From Chitinophaga terrae (ex Kim and Jung 2007) (GTDB taxonomy: Bacteria > Bacteroidota > Bacteroidia > Chitinophagales > Chitinophagaceae): a DNA stretch of 64,000 bases. Below the pieces are notes generated by a model, which made no database searches, was not told the origin of the DNA, and saw only the letters and a program-made list of their open reading frames with translations. Of the stretch, positions 37,126 through 51,277 are shown piece after piece; positions within the stretch are counted from its first letter, which is position 1; the number at the start of each line of letters is the position of its first letter. A program made the translations under genes and the position numbers. Location of the stretch: assembly GCF_900107795.1 (NCBI RefSeq), contig NZ_FNRL01000011.1:124001-188000 (forward strand), read 5' to 3'.

Positions 37126-37312
37126 GCAGAGGAGCGAAGTTTCGCGCAAAGGAGCAAAGAAGCAAAGACGCAAAGTTTTTAAATAAGAAAGCAAAGGAGT
37201 AAAGAATACTGAAAAGTAGTCTTTACTCCTTTGCTTCTTAATATTCGCTTCGATCAAAAAAACTTTGCTTCTTTGCTTCTTTGCTCCTTTGCGTGAAACT
37301 TCGCTCCTTTGC
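37126..37312. repeat. Long inverted repeat with GCAAAG tandem motif, copy 1
   Basis: A nested palindrome fills the gap between uvrA and fabF. The inner stem is perfect over 16 base pairs (37190-37205 with 37220-37235, loop of 14). The outer arms (about 37126-37180 and 37258-37312) pair with few mismatches and are built of GCAAAG units about 7-8 bases apart. The right arm keeps an extra block (ATTCGCTTCGATC) that the left arm lacks. The end lies four bases from the fabF stop codon. It is homologous to the copy at 50393-50551. Confidence 0.85.
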
Positions 37313-37315
37313 AAC

Positions 37316-38578
37316 CTACGCTTTGTATTTTTTGAATACGCAGATCGCATTGTGGCCGCCGAAACCGAAGGTATTGCTCATGGCTACGTTGATGGTACGT
37401 TGCTGCGCTTTACCTAAAGTCAGGTTCAGGTTAGTTGGAATTCCTTCTCCCAGCACGGTAGTGTTGATGGTTGGAGGAACGATATCTTCCTGGGTGGCTT
37501 TGATACAAGCGATGGCTTCGATAGCGCCGGCAGCGCCGAGCAGGTGACCTGTCATTGATTTGGTGGCACTGATGTTCAGTTTTTCTGCGTGATCGCCGAA
37601 TGCAGAAACGATCGCTTTCAGTTCGCTGACGTCGCCTACCGGTGTGGAAGTGGCGTGAGCGTTGATATAATCGATATCTGTCATTTGCAGGTCTGCATCG
37701 CGGATGGCTTCTTCCATACCCATACGTGCACCCAGGCCTTCGGGGTGAGTAGCGGTCAGGTGATAAGCGTCGCAAGTCATTGCGCCGCCGATCATTTCAC
37801 CATAGATGGTAGCGCCCCTGGCGATCGCGTGTTCATATTCTTCCAAGACAATAGCTCCGGCGCCTTCTCCCATTACAAAACCATCACGGTCTGTATCGAA
37901 AGGACGGGCGGCGTGGGTAGGGTCTTCGTTGTTGGTAGACAAAGCTTTAAGAGCATTAAAGCCGGCAATGCCTGCACGGGTTACAGGTGCTTCCGAACCG
38001 CCGGCGATGATAGCATTGGCTTTACCCAGGCGGATATAGTTAAATGCATCAACCAGTGCGCTGGAAGAAGATGCGCAGGCAGAAACAGTACAGAAGTTCA
38101 CTCCCATAAATCCATATTTCATGGCTATCTGGCCTGCTGCGATGTCGGAAATCAATTTAGGAATGAAGAAAGGGTTGAATTTAGGAACGAAATTAGCTTC
38201 CGCAAATTCAACGATCTGTTCTTCGAACGTCAGCATACCGCCGTTACCTGAAGCCCAGATAACGCCAATTTTGGTCTTATCCACGCCTTCATTAGTAAGG
38301 CCCGCATCCAATACTGCTTCATGAGCAGCAGCCATAGCGTACTGTGTGAAGTTGTCCATTTTCCTGGCTTCCTTCTTTTCCATGTATTTCTCTACATCAA
38401 AACCTTTGACTTCACAGGCAAATTTTGTCTTGAACTCTGTGGTGTCAAATTTTGTGATGGGACCGGCGCCACTTACACCAGCCTTCATATTGTTCCAAAA
38501 TGTATTTACATCATTCCCGATAGGTGTTAGTGCTCCGAGACCGGTAACCACAACCCTTTTCAGTGTAACAGTACGCAT
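37316..38578 (-). CDS. fabF: 3-oxoacyl-[acyl-carrier-protein] synthase II
   Basis: FabF extends the growing acyl-ACP chain in type II fatty acid synthesis. The 420-residue thiolase-fold protein has the catalytic Cys168 in TVSACASSSSAL, the two histidines in INAHATSTPVGDVSE and SMTGHLLGAAGAIEA, and the closing SNTFGFGGHNA. It usually sits behind acpP, but here the next gene upstream is a desaturase and no acpP is within view. A -7 box (TAAATTTG at 38610-38617) gives it its own promoter. The long inverted repeat starts four bases after its stop. Confidence 0.96.
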   Translation of the reverse strand: MRTVTLKRVVVTGLGALTPIGNDVNTFWNNMKAGVSGAGPITKFDTTEFKTKFACEVKGFDVEKYMEKKEARKMDNFTQYAMAAAHEAVLDAGLTNEGVDKTKIGVIWASGNGGMLTFEEQIVEFAEANFVPKFNPFFIPKLISDIAAGQIAMKYGFMGVNFCTVSACASSSSALVDAFNYIRLGKANAIIAGGSEAPVTRAGIAGFNALKALSTNNEDPTHAARPFDTDRDGFVMGEGAGAIVLEEYEHAIARGATIYGEMIGGAMTCDAYHLTATHPEGLGARMGMEEAIRDADLQMTDIDYINAHATSTPVGDVSELKAIVSAFGDHAEKLNISATKSMTGHLLGAAGAIEAIACIKATQEDIVPPTINTTVLGEGIPTNLNLTLGKAQQRTINVAMSNTFGFGGHNAICVFKKYKA

Positions 38579-38617: not shown

Positions 38618-38731
38618 GTTACTTATTGTTATGATTAATCATTTTCATTAAGATAATCTAACATAACTTTTATTAATTTATATTGAAATGGGCCACTGTA
38701 GCGGTTTTTTGGACCATTATCGACATAAAAA

Positions 38732-38760
38732 CGGCTGTCTCTACTGGTTAGAGACAGCCG
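38732..38760 (-). terminator. Intrinsic terminator of the desaturase gene (GTCTCT family)
   Basis: CGGCTGTCTCT (38732-38742) pairs perfectly with AGAGACAGCCG (38750-38760), loop of 7; the minus strand then runs into TTTTT. The stem resembles those at 46069-46099 and 46149-46185. Confidence 0.9.
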
Positions 38761-43766: not shown

Positions 43767-46046
43767 ATGAAAAAAACAATATTATCTATTCTGCTGGTAT
43801 CCTCCCTGCACGGTTTCGCCCAGGAAAACGTGCTGCAGTACGTGAAACCGATCACCGGCACACAACGGATGGGACATACCTACCCCGGCGCTACTGTACC
43901 TTTCGGTATGGTGCAGTTAAGCCCCGAAACTGATACGATTCCTTACGACATGAACGGGAAATACAATCCTGATGTGTATAAGTATTGTGCAGGATATCAA
44001 TATGAAGACAAAACAATTGTAGGATTCAGTCATACGCATTTCAGCGGTACCGGCCACTCCGACCTTGGCGATTTCCTCATCATGCCAACAGTTGGCAAAC
44101 TGCAATTAAACCCCGGAACCGCCGATAATCCTGAAAGCGGCTACCGTAGCAGGTTCTCTCATGCCAATGAAGTGGCGGAACCAAACTACTACAAAGTAAA
44201 ACTGGATGATGATAATATCATCGCCGAGCTGACAACCAGCAACCGCGTAGGTTTCCACCAATACACCTTCCCGCAGACCGACCAGGCTCATATCATCCTG
44301 GATATGATGTCGGGCATTTACAACCACGAGAATAAAAACGTCTGGACCTTTATCCGCGTTGAAAACGATACACTGATCACGGGCTTCAGGCAAACCAACG
44401 GCTGGGCGCGTACAAGGATCGAATATTTTGCAATGGTGTTCTCCAAACCATTTGTACAATACGGTCAGCAAAATTATTCCAAAGACGTTTACCGCGGTTT
44501 CTGGAGAAAATTCGATCAAACAAAGAATTTTCCTGAAATGGCCGGCCGCCAGCTTCGCGCATACTTTGATTTCAAAACATCTGCAGGCGAAAAGATCAAG
44601 ATCAAATTTGCGCTCTCTCCTGTAAGTACTGCCGGCGCTGTAAAAAATCTTTCAGAGATCCCGGGATGGGATTTTGATAAAGTGAAACAGGATGGCCAGG
44701 CATTGTGGGCCAAAGAGCTGAACAAGATCCATATCGAATCCGGGAGCCGGGAAGAAAAGGAAAACTTTTATACGGCCATGTACCATGCTTTCATTAACCC
44801 AACTACCTACATGGATATTGACGGTTCGTACAGGGGGCTGGATATGAATATTCACCAGGCGGATGGCTTCACCAACTATACTACTTTCTCCCTCTGGGAT
44901 ACATACAGGGCTTTGCACCCGCTTTTCAACGTTATTCAGCCTAAGCGGAACGCTGATATGATACAATCGATGCTGAAACACTATGAACAAAGTGTACAGC
45001 ATATGCTGCCTGTATGGTCGCATTACGCCAATGAAAACTGGTGCATGATAGGCTATCACAGCGTTTCTGTAATTGCAGATGCTATCATGAAAGGCAATGC
45101 GCCTTTTGATGCGGAAAAGGCATTGGAGGCCTGTGTAACTACTGCGCGGCATCGCACCTACGATGGCCTGGAATACTATATAGACAAAGGCTATGTGCCG
45201 GAAGACAGGAACGGTTCCTCTGTTTCCAAAACCCTCGAATATGCATACGACGACTGGTGTATTGCACAGGTAGCGAAGAAATTGGGCAAGCAGGATATTT
45301 ATGATGAATTCATGAAACGTTCTGCCAACTACAGGAATGTTTACGATTCACAGACAGGTTTTATGCGCCCGCGCCTGGACAACGGTACCTTCAAAACCAG
45401 CTTTGATCCGCTGCAAACGCACGACCAGGGCTTTATTGAAGGTAACGCCTGGAATTACAGCCTGTATGTTCCGCATAACCCCGACGATATGATCGCCATG
45501 ATGGGCGGTAAAAAGCAGTTTACCCAACACCTGGATTCATTATTCACAATGGAACTGCCGGATAAATATTTTGCGGAAACGGAAGATATTACCCGCGATG
45601 GTATCATTGGCAACTACGTGCATGGTAATGAACCTTCTCACCATGTGGCCTACCTTTATAACTGGACCGGCTACCCCTGGAAAACCCAGGAAAGGGTGAG
45701 GATGATCCTGAAAAAGATGTACCATCCGGGTCCTGACGGCTTAGGCGGAAATGACGACTGCGGCCAGATGAGCGCCTGGTATATTTTCACCACGCTTGGT
45801 TTTTACCCCGTTTGCCCGGGCTCAGATCAATACTCGCTGGGCAGCCCGGCTATCGATAAAGCTACCCTGCAGCTGGAGAACGGGAAAACATTTGTTGTAG
45901 ATGTAAAGAACCAGGGAGATAAGAATGTTTATGTACAGAAAGTGATGTTAAACGGCGCTCCTTTAAATCGTTTGTATATTACGCACGATGAAATTATGAA
46001 AGGTGGAGTTATTACCTTTGTAATGGGTTCCAAACCGAAAAAGTAG
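43767..46046 (+). CDS. GH92 exo-alpha-mannosidase
   Basis: The second GH92 enzyme, 759 residues from the ATG at 43767, which gives the signal peptide MKKTILSILLVSSLHGFAQ. An in-frame ATG 39 bases upstream lies inside the terminator stem and is rejected. It has YVKPITGTQRMGHTYPGATV, CAGYQYEDKTIVGFSHTHFS, GNAWNYSLYVPHNPDDMIAM, HGNEPSHHVAYLYN with Glu622 and GGNDDCGQMSAWY. So it is a normal family member, and is secreted to the periplasm. The pair may act on different linkages. No SusC/SusD genes are adjacent. A terminator follows at 46069. Confidence 0.95.
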   Translation: MKKTILSILLVSSLHGFAQENVLQYVKPITGTQRMGHTYPGATVPFGMVQLSPETDTIPYDMNGKYNPDVYKYCAGYQYEDKTIVGFSHTHFSGTGHSDLGDFLIMPTVGKLQLNPGTADNPESGYRSRFSHANEVAEPNYYKVKLDDDNIIAELTTSNRVGFHQYTFPQTDQAHIILDMMSGIYNHENKNVWTFIRVENDTLITGFRQTNGWARTRIEYFAMVFSKPFVQYGQQNYSKDVYRGFWRKFDQTKNFPEMAGRQLRAYFDFKTSAGEKIKIKFALSPVSTAGAVKNLSEIPGWDFDKVKQDGQALWAKELNKIHIESGSREEKENFYTAMYHAFINPTTYMDIDGSYRGLDMNIHQADGFTNYTTFSLWDTYRALHPLFNVIQPKRNADMIQSMLKHYEQSVQHMLPVWSHYANENWCMIGYHSVSVIADAIMKGNAPFDAEKALEACVTTARHRTYDGLEYYIDKGYVPEDRNGSSVSKTLEYAYDDWCIAQVAKKLGKQDIYDEFMKRSANYRNVYDSQTGFMRPRLDNGTFKTSFDPLQTHDQGFIEGNAWNYSLYVPHNPDDMIAMMGGKKQFTQHLDSLFTMELPDKYFAETEDITRDGIIGNYVHGNEPSHHVAYLYNWTGYPWKTQERVRMILKKMYHPGPDGLGGNDDCGQMSAWYIFTTLGFYPVCPGSDQYSLGSPAIDKATLQLENGKTFVVDVKNQGDKNVYVQKVMLNGAPLNRLYITHDEIMKGGVITFVMGSKPKK

Positions 46047-46068
46047 GCTTGTTTATCAATTGTATAAA

Positions 46069-46099
46069 AGGGCTGTCTCTACGCTGTGGAGACGGCCCT
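46069..46099 (+). terminator. Intrinsic terminator of the second GH92 gene (GTCTCT family)
   Basis: A 12-base-pair stem (46069-46080 with 46088-46099, two G-U pairs, loop of 7) lies 22 bases after the stop and is followed by TGTTTATTTTAT. It is close to the reverse complement of the hairpin at 46149-46185. Confidence 0.85.
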
Positions 46100-46148
46100 G
46101 TTTATTTTATGGCTCTGCTGTTTAAGCTCCTGTATGGGCCACAAATCA

Positions 46149-46185
46149 AAAAGGTCCGTCTCCACAGCGTAGAGACGGACCTTTT
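46149..46185 (-). terminator. Intrinsic terminator of the sugar-oxidation cluster (GTCTCT family)
   Basis: A perfect 14-base-pair stem (46149-46162 with 46172-46185, loop CACAGCGTA) 24 bases after the stop of the 1134-residue protein gene; minus strand ends in a T-run. Its stem and loop mirror the terminator at 46069-46099. Confidence 0.88.
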
Positions 46186-46209
46186 ATAACGCTTGCGCGT
46201 ATATTTTTC

Positions 46210-49200
46210 TTATGGCAATAATGCAATTGAAACAACGCCTAACTGCACCTGCTGAGTTGCATCTGTCGATTTAAAACGGATATACAGGTTATGTAATTTA
46301 CCGTCGGTGATCGGGGTGAACCTGATGGCAGCTTTGTTAGGAGCTTTTGCAGCAGCGCCGGGACCGATGGTCACTTCGCCGAGGCGGGCGCCATTTTCGT
46401 CGTCCAGGAATGCTTCAACAACATAGCCCTGTTGCGGTGTTTCCTGAACCATGTAAGTGAATTCAAGTCCGCTGACTTCTGTCAGGTCGAGTTGCTTGTA
46501 GCTTGCCCAACCGCCGTTTGAAGGGATCAGGAACTTGCGGTTATCTACAGAGAATGCAGAAATACCGTTGCTCTTGTCGTAATCCGCTGCCGGGATAGTT
46601 GGGTTGCGTAATTCAACGGATGCTGTTCCGGTGATTGGTTTAATACCTGCGCCGCCTTTATCTGTATAGCTTGCGAACAGGTACAGCGTTCCGTTTTCTT
46701 TTACTTCGCCGCCCATAGTTGGGTTGATCGCGCCAGATACCGGCAGGGAAGCAACTTTAGGCGTATTGCCGCCTACAGAGTAGATGTATTCTACCAGCTG
46801 TTTTGCTTCGCCCATAGACAGGCCAGGGTGAGCCGACATAGCTGTTTCGCCCCAAACGCCGCCACCGCCGTTGATGATCTTCTTCGCCAGTTTTTCCGGA
46901 GCTTCAGGATCGTTCTTGTATTTTTCAGCTACCTGTTTAAAGCTTGGACCAATTGATTTCTCATCAACCTTATGACAGGTCTTACAATCAGAAACTTCCA
47001 TGATATTCTTGCCGGCAATGGCGCCGCTGATGATCTGGTGGCCCTGAGGAGATGCGGCTTTATCTTTACCATCGATATAATCTGCCTTCACAAAGATGTT
47101 GTTCACATCCAGTTTGCCATCTGCCGAGCTGCCATCTTCCTTATCACTTACGCTAACAGCATAGTGAACCTGTTTGCCAGGGAAGTAGAACATCTTGTTG
47201 CCTGTAATGTCGATCTTCACTTCAGGAGTTTCGTTACCTGCATAGAGTTCAATGTTCTTGCTCTTAGTTTTAGCGCCTTTGTCGTCTGCTACTTCCACTG
47301 ATACCTGGTATTCACCGGCTGTAGTGTAGGTATATTCAACAAATGGTTCTGTCGTTTCTTTCTTGGTGCCGTTGCCCAGGTTCCACATATAAGTGAGTTT
47401 ATCGCCATCCGGATCTTTAGATCCTTCTGCACTGATCTTCACTTTAAATGGCAGGCCGCCGGTCTGATGGTTTACAGAGATCTCAGCTTTCGGAGCGCGG
47501 TTGCCGCCGTTGTAGTCTATACGGGCCAAACCTGCATCCGGGTTTTTGCTGAACCAGCCGTTTCCGTATTCCAGTACATACAAACGGCCATCAGGACCCA
47601 TTTCCATATCGATAGGCGCTACAAATTTGGTATGAGGCATGAACTTTTCCATTTTGGAGAAGTTGCCGTTTTTGTCCATGGTTACAGCCATGATCCATCC
47701 GCGGATCCAGTCGTAGATGAACAGTTTACCATTGTAGTAATCAGGGAAACGGGTTTCTTTTGGATAGAATTCGCTGTAGTATACAGGGCCTGCTTCCGCA
47801 TTACGGCCTCCGGAACCTACGATCGGGAACTCTTCTGATTTTGCATAAGGGTACCAGATGAAGGCAGGAGTAGCTGGAGGTAATTCTTTTAACCCCGTGT
47901 TGTTACGGGAATGGTTGATTGGTTTTAACGGATCGTAATATGGTCCGCTTTCGCCAGTCTCGTAATTATACACCCTGTAAGGTTTGTTATTGGCGATGAA
48001 CATAGGATAACCAAAGAAGCCAGGTTTTTTGGCCTGGTTGATCTCATCGTATCCGCGTGGTCCGCGCAGGGAATCATCGTTATTGGCATCCGGACCTACC
48101 TCTCCCCAATACACATACCCGGTTTTCTGGTCTACCGACATACGGTAAGGGTTACGCGTACCCATAGCGTAGATCTCAGGGCGTGTTTTGGCGGTACCCT
48201 CTGGGAAGAGGTTACCTTTAGGAATGCTGTAGGAGCCATCTTCATTCACTTTAATACGAAGGATCTTACCACGCAGATCGTTGGTGTTGGCAGATCCGCG
48301 CAGGTCGTCGTATTGCAGGTGACCAGGACGGTCGTCTGTTGGTCCGTAACCTTTGCTCACATATTTCTGGCCCGGTTCGTCGAATGGCGTGGTATTATCA
48401 CCTGTAGAAAGATATAACAGGCCATCGGGACCAAAAGCGATAGAACCGCCTGTATGGCAGCAGATATCACGTTGTGAATAGAATTGCAGGATCACTTTTT
48501 CGGAAGACATGTCCAGTTTGTTGTTTTCGAATTTGAAACGCGACAAACGGTTAACGGAAGTGTCTTTAGGCGAATACATCGCGTAGATGTAGTGATTATC
48601 CTTGAATTTAGGATCGGCGGCCAGTCCCAGGAATCCTTCTTCAGCATTTACATGCGGCACATCGGTATGATGATAAACATTCAGGAATCCAACCTGTGAA
48701 AGTTTTTTCTCTGCATTGTTATAGAGCATCAGTTCACCACGGCGCTGGGCAATGAGGATGTCGAGGTTCGGGAGTATAGCCATTTCCGTTGGTTCGAAGA
48801 ACTCGCCCGATACCAGCTGGGTTTTGGTGAAACGGTCTTCGTCCGGAACGCGCAGCGTAGTTGCTTTGCTGTAATCCAGCACCAGGTTCTTACCGATCGC
48901 ATATTTAATACCGCCGGCAATATGTTTCAGGAACAGGCTATCAGAATAGGATTCTTCGGTATGACCAAGACCTGTGTAGAAAGCGCGTCCGCCATCATAG
49001 TCGTGGTACCAGCTGATAGGGTGATTACCATTCATGGTACCGCCCTGGTAGCTCTTTTCGTCCAGTTTCAGCAGTACCGTAGTGGTAGTATCTACATTCC
49101 TGTAGTTGTACCATTCGTCGGTATGTTCCCATTTTTCGGGAAGTCCTTCTGTTGCAGGGAAAGATTTGTCCACTACTTCGATGGTAGCTTTATGAACGCC

Positions 49201-49614
49201 CGGAGGGTGGTTCTGGAACCATGCGCCGGCGAGGTGGTTATACCATCCCCATTCGTATTCTGCATCGGCTGCGGCATGAATACCAACGTACCCGCCACCT
49301 GCCTGGATATATCTTTCGAAATCAGCTTCCTGGTAGTTGTTCAGCAGATCACCTGTGGTATTGAGGAAGATAACGGCAGCGTATTGTTGCAGTGAATCTT
49401 CGTTGAATTTCGCTGCATCTACAGTAGTGTCTACATCAAACCCATTTTCCTGTCCCAGTTTCTGGATGGCAGTGATGCCCGGGGTGATGGAGTTATGATG
49501 GAAGCCTGCTGTTTTGGTAAACAGGAGCACTTTAGGCTTTCCGGGCCTGGACTTCTGACAGGCGGCGAAGCCTACAAGGGCCAGGAGAAGAATTAGTTTA
49601 ATTGAATTTTTCAT
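46210..49614 (-). CDS. Five-part lipoprotein: ThuA, PQQ-type sugar dehydrogenase, PKD, cytochrome c and carbohydrate-binding-like domain
   Basis: The 1134-residue protein begins with a lipoprotein signal (LLALVGFAAC, Cys20). Domains in order: ThuA-like (about 28-240, VLLFTKTAGFHHNSITPGIT); six-bladed sugar dehydrogenase of the PQQ/sorbosone type (about 255-690, with IAQRRGELMLYN, MYSPKDTSVNRLSR, GRLYVLEYGNGWF); PKD (about 700-795, DPDGDKLTYMWNLGNGTKKE); monohaem cytochrome c (about 870-960, CKTCH at 877-881); and a beta-rich C-terminal part that resembles CBM6. Electrons taken from a sugar could pass to the haem in the same chain. It is the last gene of the cluster. Confidence 0.9.
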   Translation of the reverse strand: MKNSIKLILLLALVGFAACQKSRPGKPKVLLFTKTAGFHHNSITPGITAIQKLGQENGFDVDTTVDAAKFNEDSLQQYAAVIFLNTTGDLLNNYQEADFERYIQAGGGYVGIHAAADAEYEWGWYNHLAGAWFQNHPPGVHKATIEVVDKSFPATEGLPEKWEHTDEWYNYRNVDTTTTVLLKLDEKSYQGGTMNGNHPISWYHDYDGGRAFYTGLGHTEESYSDSLFLKHIAGGIKYAIGKNLVLDYSKATTLRVPDEDRFTKTQLVSGEFFEPTEMAILPNLDILIAQRRGELMLYNNAEKKLSQVGFLNVYHHTDVPHVNAEEGFLGLAADPKFKDNHYIYAMYSPKDTSVNRLSRFKFENNKLDMSSEKVILQFYSQRDICCHTGGSIAFGPDGLLYLSTGDNTTPFDEPGQKYVSKGYGPTDDRPGHLQYDDLRGSANTNDLRGKILRIKVNEDGSYSIPKGNLFPEGTAKTRPEIYAMGTRNPYRMSVDQKTGYVYWGEVGPDANNDDSLRGPRGYDEINQAKKPGFFGYPMFIANNKPYRVYNYETGESGPYYDPLKPINHSRNNTGLKELPPATPAFIWYPYAKSEEFPIVGSGGRNAEAGPVYYSEFYPKETRFPDYYNGKLFIYDWIRGWIMAVTMDKNGNFSKMEKFMPHTKFVAPIDMEMGPDGRLYVLEYGNGWFSKNPDAGLARIDYNGGNRAPKAEISVNHQTGGLPFKVKISAEGSKDPDGDKLTYMWNLGNGTKKETTEPFVEYTYTTAGEYQVSVEVADDKGAKTKSKNIELYAGNETPEVKIDITGNKMFYFPGKQVHYAVSVSDKEDGSSADGKLDVNNIFVKADYIDGKDKAASPQGHQIISGAIAGKNIMEVSDCKTCHKVDEKSIGPSFKQVAEKYKNDPEAPEKLAKKIINGGGGVWGETAMSAHPGLSMGEAKQLVEYIYSVGGNTPKVASLPVSGAINPTMGGEVKENGTLYLFASYTDKGGAGIKPITGTASVELRNPTIPAADYDKSNGISAFSVDNRKFLIPSNGGWASYKQLDLTEVSGLEFTYMVQETPQQGYVVEAFLDDENGARLGEVTIGPGAAAKAPNKAAIRFTPITDGKLHNLYIRFKSTDATQQVQLGVVSIALLP

Positions 49615-49628
49615 TACTATAGCTAGTC

Positions 49629-50375
49629 TTAGTTATTGGGTTTCCAATTACCGATGGCGTATTCTATGCCACCCAGTAAATGCTTCAGATATACAGGATC
49701 CTGGTAGGATTCTTTGACGTGGCCCATTTCAGTGTAAAATGCGCGTCCTCCTTCGAAGCTGTGATACCAGCACATAGGGTGATTGTCGCCGTTTTTACCG
49801 CCGGAGTAAGTGCTTTCATCTATTTTGATCAGCACATGCACATCAGGGTTCAGGTTCTTGAAATTGTACCACTCGTCTTTACGGATCCATTCATCCGGCA
49901 GGTCTTTGGTGGCGGGGTGGTTATGATCTACAACCCTGAGCATTGCTGTTTGCTGGTGCGGGTGACTGAGGAACCATGCACCGGCCAGTTTGTTGTACCA
50001 AGGCCAGTCGTACTCTGTGTCTGTTGCCGCGTGGATACCCATCCATCCTCCGCCTTTGTGTATGTAGTTTTCGAAAGCTACCTGTTGCGCGCTGTCTAAT
50101 ACATCGCCGGTAGTGCAGCTGAAGATGACTGCTGCATATTTTTTAAGATTGGAAGGAGTGAATACACTTGCATCTTCCGTAGTGTCGACCTTAAAACCGT
50201 TTTCTTCCCCTAATTTCATGATTGCCAGCTTAGCGGCTGGAATGCAATCATGACGGAATCCTTTGGTTTTGGAGAACACTAAAACTCTTTTTGTTTTTGG
50301 CTTATGACCGCCGGCTTGCGCGGCTGTCAGGCCAATAAGGAGCATGAGTGCGAAAAACGTGGTTAATGTTTTCAT
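49629..50375 (-). CDS. Secreted ThuA-like protein
   Basis: The 248-residue protein has a signal peptide (MKTLTTFFALMLLIGLTAAQAGG) and one ThuA domain (VLVFSKTKGFRHDCIPAAKL, GGGWMGIHAATDTEYDWPWY, MCWYHSFEGGRAFYTEMGHV), a glutamine-amidotransferase-like fold linked to 3-keto-sugar and trehalose-type metabolism. It is clearly related to the first domain of the 1134-residue neighbour, 14 bases downstream. I start at 50375; the longer frame (to 50411) begins inside the inverted repeat. Its catalytic activity is not established. Confidence 0.9.
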   Translation of the reverse strand: MKTLTTFFALMLLIGLTAAQAGGHKPKTKRVLVFSKTKGFRHDCIPAAKLAIMKLGEENGFKVDTTEDASVFTPSNLKKYAAVIFSCTTGDVLDSAQQVAFENYIHKGGGWMGIHAATDTEYDWPWYNKLAGAWFLSHPHQQTAMLRVVDHNHPATKDLPDEWIRKDEWYNFKNLNPDVHVLIKIDESTYSGGKNGDNHPMCWYHSFEGGRAFYTEMGHVKESYQDPVYLKHLLGGIEYAIGNWKPNN

Positions 50376-50392: not shown

Positions 50393-50551
50393 CTTTCACG
50401 CGGAGACGCAAAGAATTTTTTTAGATTGAAGCGAATTTTAAGACCGCAAAGGAGCGGAGATTATGTATTGTTTAAAATATTTATTTCCGCTCCTTTGCGG
50501 TCTTAAAATTCGCTTCAATCTAAAAAAATTCTTTGCGCCTTTGCGTGAAAG
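50393..50551. repeat. Long inverted repeat with GCAAAG motif, copy 2
   Basis: Two 66-base arms (50393-50458 and 50486-50551) pair with only three mismatches around a 27-base loop. The arms contain GCAAAGGAGCGG, GAAGCGAATTTT and TTTCACGC, as in the copy at 37126-37312. It lies four bases from the DUF1080 stop codon and 17 bases before the ThuA start, on the transcribed path between the two genes, so it may fold in the mRNA. Confidence 0.9.
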
Positions 50552-50554
50552 GAA

Positions 50555-51277
50555 TTAAAGTTCTCTTATTTTGATATTACGGTACCATACGTCGTTACCG
50601 TGGTCCTGCAAGGCGATATGACCTTTAGCGTATTTGCCGAAGTCCTTCCAGTTTTTGAATTTACTGTTAGCTACCAAAGCATCCCATTCAGGAGTACCCA
50701 TAGTAGTTTCGGCAGTTTTAACGCCGTTGAGCCAGAGGGTCAGGTGACCATCTTTTTTCAGGATCCTGGCGGTGTTCCACTGGCCAACCGGTTTGGCAGG
50801 GTTAGATGGAGCTTTGATCAGGTCGTACAATTCGCCTGAATTGTGCTTTACGTTCTTACCATCCGGGTGTTTTGCATCGTCCAGTACCTGCATTTCAGGA
50901 CCGGATAAGTATGACTGGCCCAATGAAGGATCTTCATGTACGCTGAAAATGATACCGCTGTTACCGCCTTCAGAGATCTTCCAGTCGATCAGCAGTTCGT
51001 AATTTTCGTATTCGCCGTCTGTTACCAGGTCGCCGCCGGGGGCGCCACTTTTCTTGGCAGATTGGTCGAGGCCAATTGCGCCATCAGCAACTTTCCATGC
51101 CGCGCTGGCAGAAGACTGGTTGTAAGAATGCCATCCTTTGGTAGAAGTACCATCGAACAACAGTTTCCAACCTTGTTTCTTTTCTTTTGCCGACAGGGTA
51201 TTCAATTTCTGGGCATTAACAACCTGGGTGCTGATTACAGCACCGAGCATGAGTGCGCCCATGATTATTTTTTTCAT
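50555..51277 (-). CDS. DUF1080 (3-keto-disaccharide hydrolase-like) secreted protein
   Basis: DUF1080 proteins have a jelly-roll fold and some cleave 3-keto-glycosides. The 240-residue protein has a signal peptide (MKKIIMGALMLGAVISTQVV, cleavage at VNAQ), then GWKLLFDGTSTKGWHSYNQS, ENYELLIDWKISEGGNSGII, LSGPEMQVLDDAKHPDGKNV, YDLIKAPSNPAKPVGQWN and the closing IALQDHGNDVWYRNIKIREL. All are family hallmarks. It lies 29 bases from the cytochrome c gene. Confidence 0.93.
   Translation of the reverse strand: MKKIIMGALMLGAVISTQVVNAQKLNTLSAKEKKQGWKLLFDGTSTKGWHSYNQSSASAAWKVADGAIGLDQSAKKSGAPGGDLVTDGEYENYELLIDWKISEGGNSGIIFSVHEDPSLGQSYLSGPEMQVLDDAKHPDGKNVKHNSGELYDLIKAPSNPAKPVGQWNTARILKKDGHLTLWLNGVKTAETTMGTPEWDALVANSKFKNWKDFGKYAKGHIALQDHGNDVWYRNIKIREL

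Follow-up and report, generated by a model that had tools for sequence, protein, structure and literature searches.

We found that the long inverted repeat standing between the DUF1080 and ThuA genes in the window, the whole 64,000-nt stretch of Chitinophaga terrae DNA analysed here, is one member of a dispersed family of gene-end palindromes. This family is well supported as a family, in its placement directly after stop codons, and in its turnover between related species. On balance, and by a narrow judgement, we read the palindromic repeat as a replacement for 3'-end terminators, with predicted termination or 3'-end protection as the best inferred role.

An earlier, sequence-only reading of this DNA had described an inverted repeat here with 66-base arms and three mismatches. 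The repeat was confirmed, with 63 of the 66 nt paired, and an alternative solution gives 69-nt arms matching at 94% around a 21-nt loop (Table 1). The very long RNA hairpin that had been proposed directly after the stop is likewise predicted. The transcribed minus strand of 50393-50551 has a predicted fold of -106.9 kcal/mol, compared with a shuffled mean of -28.3 (z -23.3), and none of 200 shuffles folds as well. Three nucleotides separate the palindrome from the DUF1080 TAA stop, and the same spacing of 3 nt separates copy 1 (37126-37312) from the FabF-like gene, whose stop is at 37316. The "four bases" reported before are this gap counted inclusively, alike in both copies. The gap is no fixed distance, however, since 3 nt falls within the tight distribution of the family as a whole, whose median is 0. 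The two copies had also been taken for the same inverted repeat. They do share a family, but their sequences differ, the sole listed match being 73% over positions 98-158 of the copy 1 query, and the comparison points to relatives within one family and not to duplicates. The ThuA start is most likely the ATG at 50375, 17 nt past the palindrome, which was chosen by a codon-usage gene caller; we preferred it over the TTG inside the element that is given by the list of open reading frames. A search of the 64-kb window against Rfam returned no matches above the gathering threshold.

Table 1 Features of the element at 50393-50551, its flanking genes, and copy 1 (window coordinates).
Feature	Position	Strand	Remarks
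Palindrome left arm	50393..50461	.	Outer end CTTTCACGCGGAG, family unit GCAAAG
Loop	50462..50482	.	21 nt with 69-nt arms; 27 nt in the 66-nt solution
Palindrome right arm	50483..50551	.	Outer end GCGTGAAAG
DUF1080 / 3-keto-disaccharide hydrolase (PF06439)	50555..51277	-	Upstream gene of the transcript; TAA stop 50555-50557
ThuA (PF06283)	49629..50375	-	Downstream gene of the transcript; probable ATG 50375
Copy 1, same family	37126..37312	.	55-nt arms, 52 paired, 77-nt loop; diverged sequence
Beta-ketoacyl synthase (FabF-like)	37316..38578	-	TAG stop 3 nt from copy 1

Two other features of the window were recorded. Another hairpin family (GGCTGTCTC...GAGACAGCC), ordinary in appearance and with terminator-like matches on both strands, occurs at 46063-46188, between a plus-strand frame ending at 46046 and a minus-strand frame ending at 46210, and again at 38728-38759. 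The region 46210-49614 encodes a protein of 1134 aa that combines ThuA, GSDH, PKD, and cytochrome c domains, adjoining the single-domain ThuA gene.

The genome from which the window comes (G000) comprises 6.63 Mb in 64 contigs, and 1.21 Mb of it (18%) was sampled in contiguous pieces. A sequence-independent search of this sample, with a minimum arm length of 22 nt and one run of N left out, yielded 58 long palindromes. The family accounts for 50 of them, or about 41 per Mb, from which we estimated a genome total of about 270 elements, assuming that the sampled 18% is typical. Arms range from 35 to 151 nt and are built of short GCAAAG-type units. Typically they open with GTTTCACGC[A/G]AAG and continue in short purine-rich units (GCAAAGAA, GCATAAGA and similar), mirrored in the partner arm. 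The end word TTTGCGTGAAA is present in 237 copies genome-wide, compared with 3 copies of the reversed control. This excess and the z of -23 for the fold rule out a chance origin of the palindrome and of the family. In the 1.21-Mb sample, 91 of 104 longer end motifs are located in or within 60 nt of the 50 palindromes, and the other 13 lie farther away. Left-arm-type half elements repeated head-to-tail, with no palindrome detected, were observed at C19:146635-146930 (L084). At C23:334 and C28:334 the end word lies about 330 nt from the contig start, as if the assembly had broken near elements.

To describe placement, we called the neighbouring genes with a simple codon-usage caller (880 genes). 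Element ends that face a stop codon were found within 5 nt of it in 47 of 74 cases and within 10 nt in 54 of 74 (median 0), and no end facing a start codon (0 of 25) came within 10 nt (median 79). The 50 elements occupy 26 convergent, 21 co-directional, and 2 divergent gaps, plus one at a contig edge. Relative to element-free gaps, convergent gaps are in excess (P 1.6e-9) and divergent gaps in deficit (P 0.01, or P 2.4e-7 when counted by intergenic bases). Placement after stops alone is not special, because 3' stem-loops, mostly in convergent gaps, are general in bacteria (PMC1590033). What is special is the closeness to the stop. Of the 26 convergent elements, 11 have both ends no more than 5 nt from stops, compared with the 7.7% that uniform insertion into the present element-free convergent gaps would give. 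The stops beside elements are also unusual in kind, TAG making up 46 of 68 compared with 216 of 880 in all called genes (P 5e-15). At a frequent junction, TA is followed directly by GTTTCACGC, so that the element's first base is the third base of the stop; we infer that an element extending any farther would destroy the stop. No triplet precedes TTTCACGC-like words more often than TAG, yet TAG stands before only 33 of 316 of these words, internal units included, and a GTAG tag is mostly absent, as judged by eye, at the far ends that adjoin no gene.

We compared gaps between species for the 22 of 50 elements whose two flanking genes lie no more than 3 kb apart in stretches of the relatives G011 or G004. 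The family is absent at 21 of the 22 orthologous gaps. The exception is element E26, whose gap carries a family member in G011 as well. The present locus (E32), where G011 has a weak hairpin with some GCAAAG-like units, was scored as lacking the family. The empty-site comparison proposed by the sequence-only reading supports gain and turnover of the family. Mobility of the transposon kind is so far not supported. Inspection by eye of the orthologous gaps, which differ by more than a clean insertion, recognised no target duplication, and the genome has no match to the Y1_Tnp transposase domain. Downstream of fabF, inspection of 260 nt by eye found the family missing in 12 of 12 same-genus relatives; the fabF stop is TAA in 11 of these 12 and TAG in the window genome.

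The orthologous gaps were then scanned for terminators under a strict rule, with a stem of at least 6, at least 4 G-C pairs, a T-rich tail, and a position no more than 110 nt from the stop. In the relatives, 18 of 38 sides passed, covering 13 of the 22 elements, compared with 0.6 in shuffles that preserve base composition only. The relatives' terminator stems are 7-21 bp. Ten of the 13 elements correspond to ordinary short terminators and three (E26, E42, and E44) to long palindromes in the relative, namely the G011 family member at E26 and palindromes of another family in G004 at E42 and E44. For the other 9 of 22 elements, nothing in the relatives' stretches passed the strict rule. Of the 38 sides in the window genome, 11 passed (shuffled 0.4), 10 of them within the element. 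The eleventh is the right side of E40, where an ordinary terminator survives between stop and element and replacement is therefore incomplete. For the element at 50393-50551 neither scan detected a strict-rule terminator, including within the element itself, which also has no U-tract outside its stem. At C19:92624 an element of 345 bp was gained where the relative has only about 7 nt between its genes, and hence no terminator that could be replaced.

At shared gaps the family is nearly always missing from the two relatives, which in many cases have an ordinary, short intrinsic terminator there. In the window genome this place is taken by the element, which usually leaves the old terminator no room. 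Confidence in replacement is reduced by the three terminator matches that belong to long palindromes and by the old-style terminator left next to one element. Other long tandem-unit palindromes were also seen in the relatives, of the CAGGATTAAACTGATTA type in G004 (L160-L166, L309-L328), several of them at gaps occupied by elements in the window genome, and of the ATTTACGGATTTT type in G011 (L147-L159).

The family is patchily distributed. The pattern TTTCACGCN{2,30}GCAAAG has 409 matches in the window genome, whereas the 59 other species of the genus that were counted have 0-69 each; pattern-rich species besides our own are G082, G104, and G093. Patchiness also marks the end word in a sample of the bacterial family, and in a 99-genome sample of the phylum, which includes our own genome, few others are rich. 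A functionless, selfish, non-autonomous repeat (MITE-like or REP-like), seen after stops only since other insertions were purged, could account for this patchiness and for an end unit shared by many phyla. It would also fit the proteins shortened or extended by elements E13, E14, and E44 and the terminator persisting at E40. Purging alone, however, would not place ends within 5 nt of both convergent stops, as in the 11 of 26 elements above, and neither the target duplications sought by eye nor a Y1 transposase in the genome was found. We consider a purely selfish repeat unlikely.

On a wider scale, a stricter 29-base pattern was found in at least 111 stretches of GTDB genomes. The titles among the matches listed include Bacteroidota, Cyanobacteria, Chloroflexota, Acidobacteria, Planctomycetes, Verrucomicrobia, Proteobacteria, Desulfobacterales, and others; these cross-phylum loci are partly metagenome bins, in which misbinned contigs are possible, and the listed records not marked as bins include Nostoc, Anabaena, and Cnuella. 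Among the matches listed, 57 of 121 cross-genome pattern matches lie in palindromes with arms of at least 18 nt. Stop proximity was evaluated for 51 distinct palindromes from other genomes (one of 52, the 648-nt locus L215, was left out). An end lies within 12 nt of the facing stop of an open frame in 23 of 51 (random mean 7.6, maximum 15), and both ends lie near stops in 8 of 51 (random mean 0.38, maximum 3). Acidobacteria and Verrucomicrobia bins contain compact forms, in which the arms measure about 26-33 nt and the loops about 9-12 nt. Carriage by phages or plasmids was considered and rejected, as a compact member (L190) used as query gave no phage matches and matched 2 of 72,556 plasmid records. 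Both plasmid matches cover 28 of the 79 query bases, and the one inspected is intergenic. Loss of SbcCD was also rejected as a cause. SbcD (TIGR00619) has no match in the window genome, but also none in 8 of 12 same-genus relatives (G001, G002, G004, G005, G006, G008, G011, and G012), all of which except G011 have no more than 4 pattern matches, so that the loss is permissive at most.

The family resembles the DNA uptake sequences of Neisseria in having a short exact word that occurs at gene ends as inverted pairs with little space between them; in Neisseria such pairs stand in terminators (PMC2397512). The high copy number of the exact end motif adds to the likeness. The family differs in its few single copies, much longer and variable arms, and occurrence in many phyla. 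Given that single copies are rare (91 of 104 end motifs lie in or near palindromes) and that the end motif is also found in unrelated phyla, we regard a DNA-uptake-type signal as highly improbable.

The DUF1080-ThuA gap itself was surveyed in 29 relatives and our own genome, drawn from 40 genomes. DUF1080 is followed by ThuA in all 30 loci. The sequence-only reading had held that presence of the repeat at the same place in all relatives would speak against a mobile or regulatory role; the family motif is present at this gap in only 1 of 29 relatives (L340, genome G104). A transcript-end role fits in that other hairpins recur at the gap in a number of relatives. The gap folds at -40 kcal/mol or below in 12 of 29, and these strong folds include palindromes of AAAAAGC-like units (L330-L334, L336), of other units (L335, L337), and of AATTACG units (L354). 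The remaining gaps have small hairpins or none that is clear, and in five relatives (L345, L346, L355-L357) the gap is 30 nt or less or the genes overlap. A role at this gap is dispensable, because some relatives have no hairpin there.

The six AAAAAGC-type gaps, from six species, share a 29-pair stem in which 92.5% of cells are paired and 5 pairs are changed on both sides, the stem being defined from one of the six sequences and the species being related. This pairing beats slid versions and nearly all shuffles (at most 9 of 500 do as well), except in the number of pair types (168 of 500). The paired changes provide moderate support for kept pairing, and template switching would yield the same paired-change pattern as selection.

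These strong folds bear on the possibility that the elements stabilise messages or attenuate operons in the manner of the E. coli REP/BIME. Under this model there would be no termination, and trimming of the message back to the hairpin would raise the upstream gene and lower the downstream one. It would suit the 21 of 49 elements that lie between co-directional genes, the position of the element at 50393-50551 at 17 nt before the ThuA start, its very stable predicted fold, and the 12 of 29 relatives with strong folds at the same gap. The family nevertheless prefers convergent gaps (26 of 49), where lowering of a downstream gene cannot be the role, and we view this model as a possibility that deserves only tentative weight.

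The two arms of an element are more alike than arms of different elements. In 50 of 50 elements the left arm is closest to its own right arm, with a median of 98% compared with 85% to the arms of others; since these elements were found as palindromes, their high arm identity is partly ascertained, which we checked against the arms of other elements and the 91 of 104 end-motif figure. Private 14-mers, present in no other element, occur in both of an element's own arms in 44 of 50 elements, and those in one arm only are about as many as those in both (733 vs 769). By pattern, the inner arm types are alpha-beta in 18 elements, alpha-alpha in 4, beta-beta in 9, and others in 19. Loops are 7-27 nt in the four alpha-alpha elements, which include 50393-50551, and 13 to 156 nt in the beta-beta elements. 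The short alpha-alpha loops are as expected if one arm had been copied onto the other. The inner arm types showed no consistent orientation with respect to the direction of transcription (5 vs 2).

Selection on the arms at the RNA level was rejected as an explanation, not decisively. On the sense strand of co-directional elements, arm mismatches comprise 16 G-U (G-T) and 12 A-C, with no clear excess of the former. Because the mismatches give no clear sign of selection for RNA pairing, we favour template switching at the DNA level as the putative cause of arm likeness. Palindromes made or kept by template switching are known elsewhere, also inside coding sequence, as reported in PMC8794818 and PMC6649704. 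Perfect arms are explained in those systems by inter-arm copying, the cause favoured for our family; the palindromes there lie in rRNA genes and mitochondrial genes, whereas here they form a dispersed bacterial family tied to stop codons.

The palindromes could be a mutational by-product, with gene-end hairpins acting as template-switch hot spots and terminators growing outward until coding sequence halts them. The likeness of arms within elements, the tandem short units, the piling of ends at the stop with TAG as TA plus the element's G, and the other tandem-unit palindromes in relatives would all follow. In-place growth, however, cannot explain why one end motif recurs at hundreds of loci and across several phyla, nor is there any terminator in the relative at C19:92624 that could have grown. 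A by-product origin is improbable in our judgement.

Some elements run into coding sequence. In 8 of 68 cases the stop lies at least 17 nt inside the palindrome. At C17:61421 (C17:61421-61711) two convergent, unrelated genes both end in ARNHV, a tail that is missing from 12 and 3 aligned orthologs of the two genes. Both genes at C19:111781 end in RE, and their G004 orthologs end in RAN and TGE. At E13 one protein is shortened by the element, and at E14 and E44 protein tails are read from it. Tails that are apparently repeat-encoded were noted at C17:61421-61711, C20:205107, C19:86053, and C17:155375.

A search of the titles and abstract openings listed for published open-licence papers did not find a description of the family. 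The nearest likeness is to REPs and to GTAG- and CGTC-tagged palindromes or REPINs. According to PMC3733652, these are also high-copy, located 3' of genes, mostly convergent or co-directional, and able to supply TAG, the GTAG termini of REPs often providing the TAG stop of flanking genes. The family shares the intergenic position 3' of genes. It differs from these REPs, which are 20-40 bp, in its arm length of 35-151 nt and in arms that differ between elements and match within each. Membership among REP/RAYT elements was rejected on the tag (33 of 316, with far ends mostly without GTAG) and on the transposase. A search for RAYT (Y1_Tnp, PF01797) gave 0 matches in the window genome, and the control search, run on 14 known genomes, detected it in 5. 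Intrinsic terminators, also bidirectional ones, and bacterial 3' stem-loops stand after stops and in convergent gaps in the same way (PMC1590033). Relatives often carry a terminator at the same gap, and 10 of 38 element sides have a hairpin with a T-rich tail. In contrast to intrinsic terminators, the family has arms several times longer, a common repeat sequence, and mostly no canonical U-tract. We filed the family as REP-like gene-end palindromes outside any named family.

A family element is a non-coding palindrome set against stops, often filling a convergent gap from stop to stop. In the replacement reading, its RNA copy would fold into a very long hairpin that may end the upstream message, or permit trimming back and protection, and in convergent gaps the hairpin could act in both directions. 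At the DUF1080-ThuA gap the element may partly separate DUF1080 expression from that of ThuA. At the DNA level, copying of one arm onto the other (quasipalindrome or template-switch correction) would keep the arms near perfect, and the pattern of ends suggests that it may also let the palindrome extend to, and sometimes beyond, the stop codon. Elements would also spread to new loci and other phyla. More tentatively still, and with considerable doubt, the elements might be trans-phylum, self-perfecting palindromic terminator cassettes that spread between genomes by a route not described before, displace the native terminator up to the stop, are maintained by inter-arm copying, and occasionally rewrite last codons, with rival sequence families competing for gene ends across species.

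The DUF1080-ThuA gap is a ready test case, because its content varies among related species from unrelated palindromes through small hairpins to almost nothing. If the replacement reading is true, it would make testable questions of REP-like movement without RAYT, of template switching versus selection on hairpins, and of the rate of terminator turnover. The repeats that alter protein ends are an unusual source of new C-termini. The gene-end signal in some bacteria would then be supplied by an invading repeat and not by locally evolved terminators.
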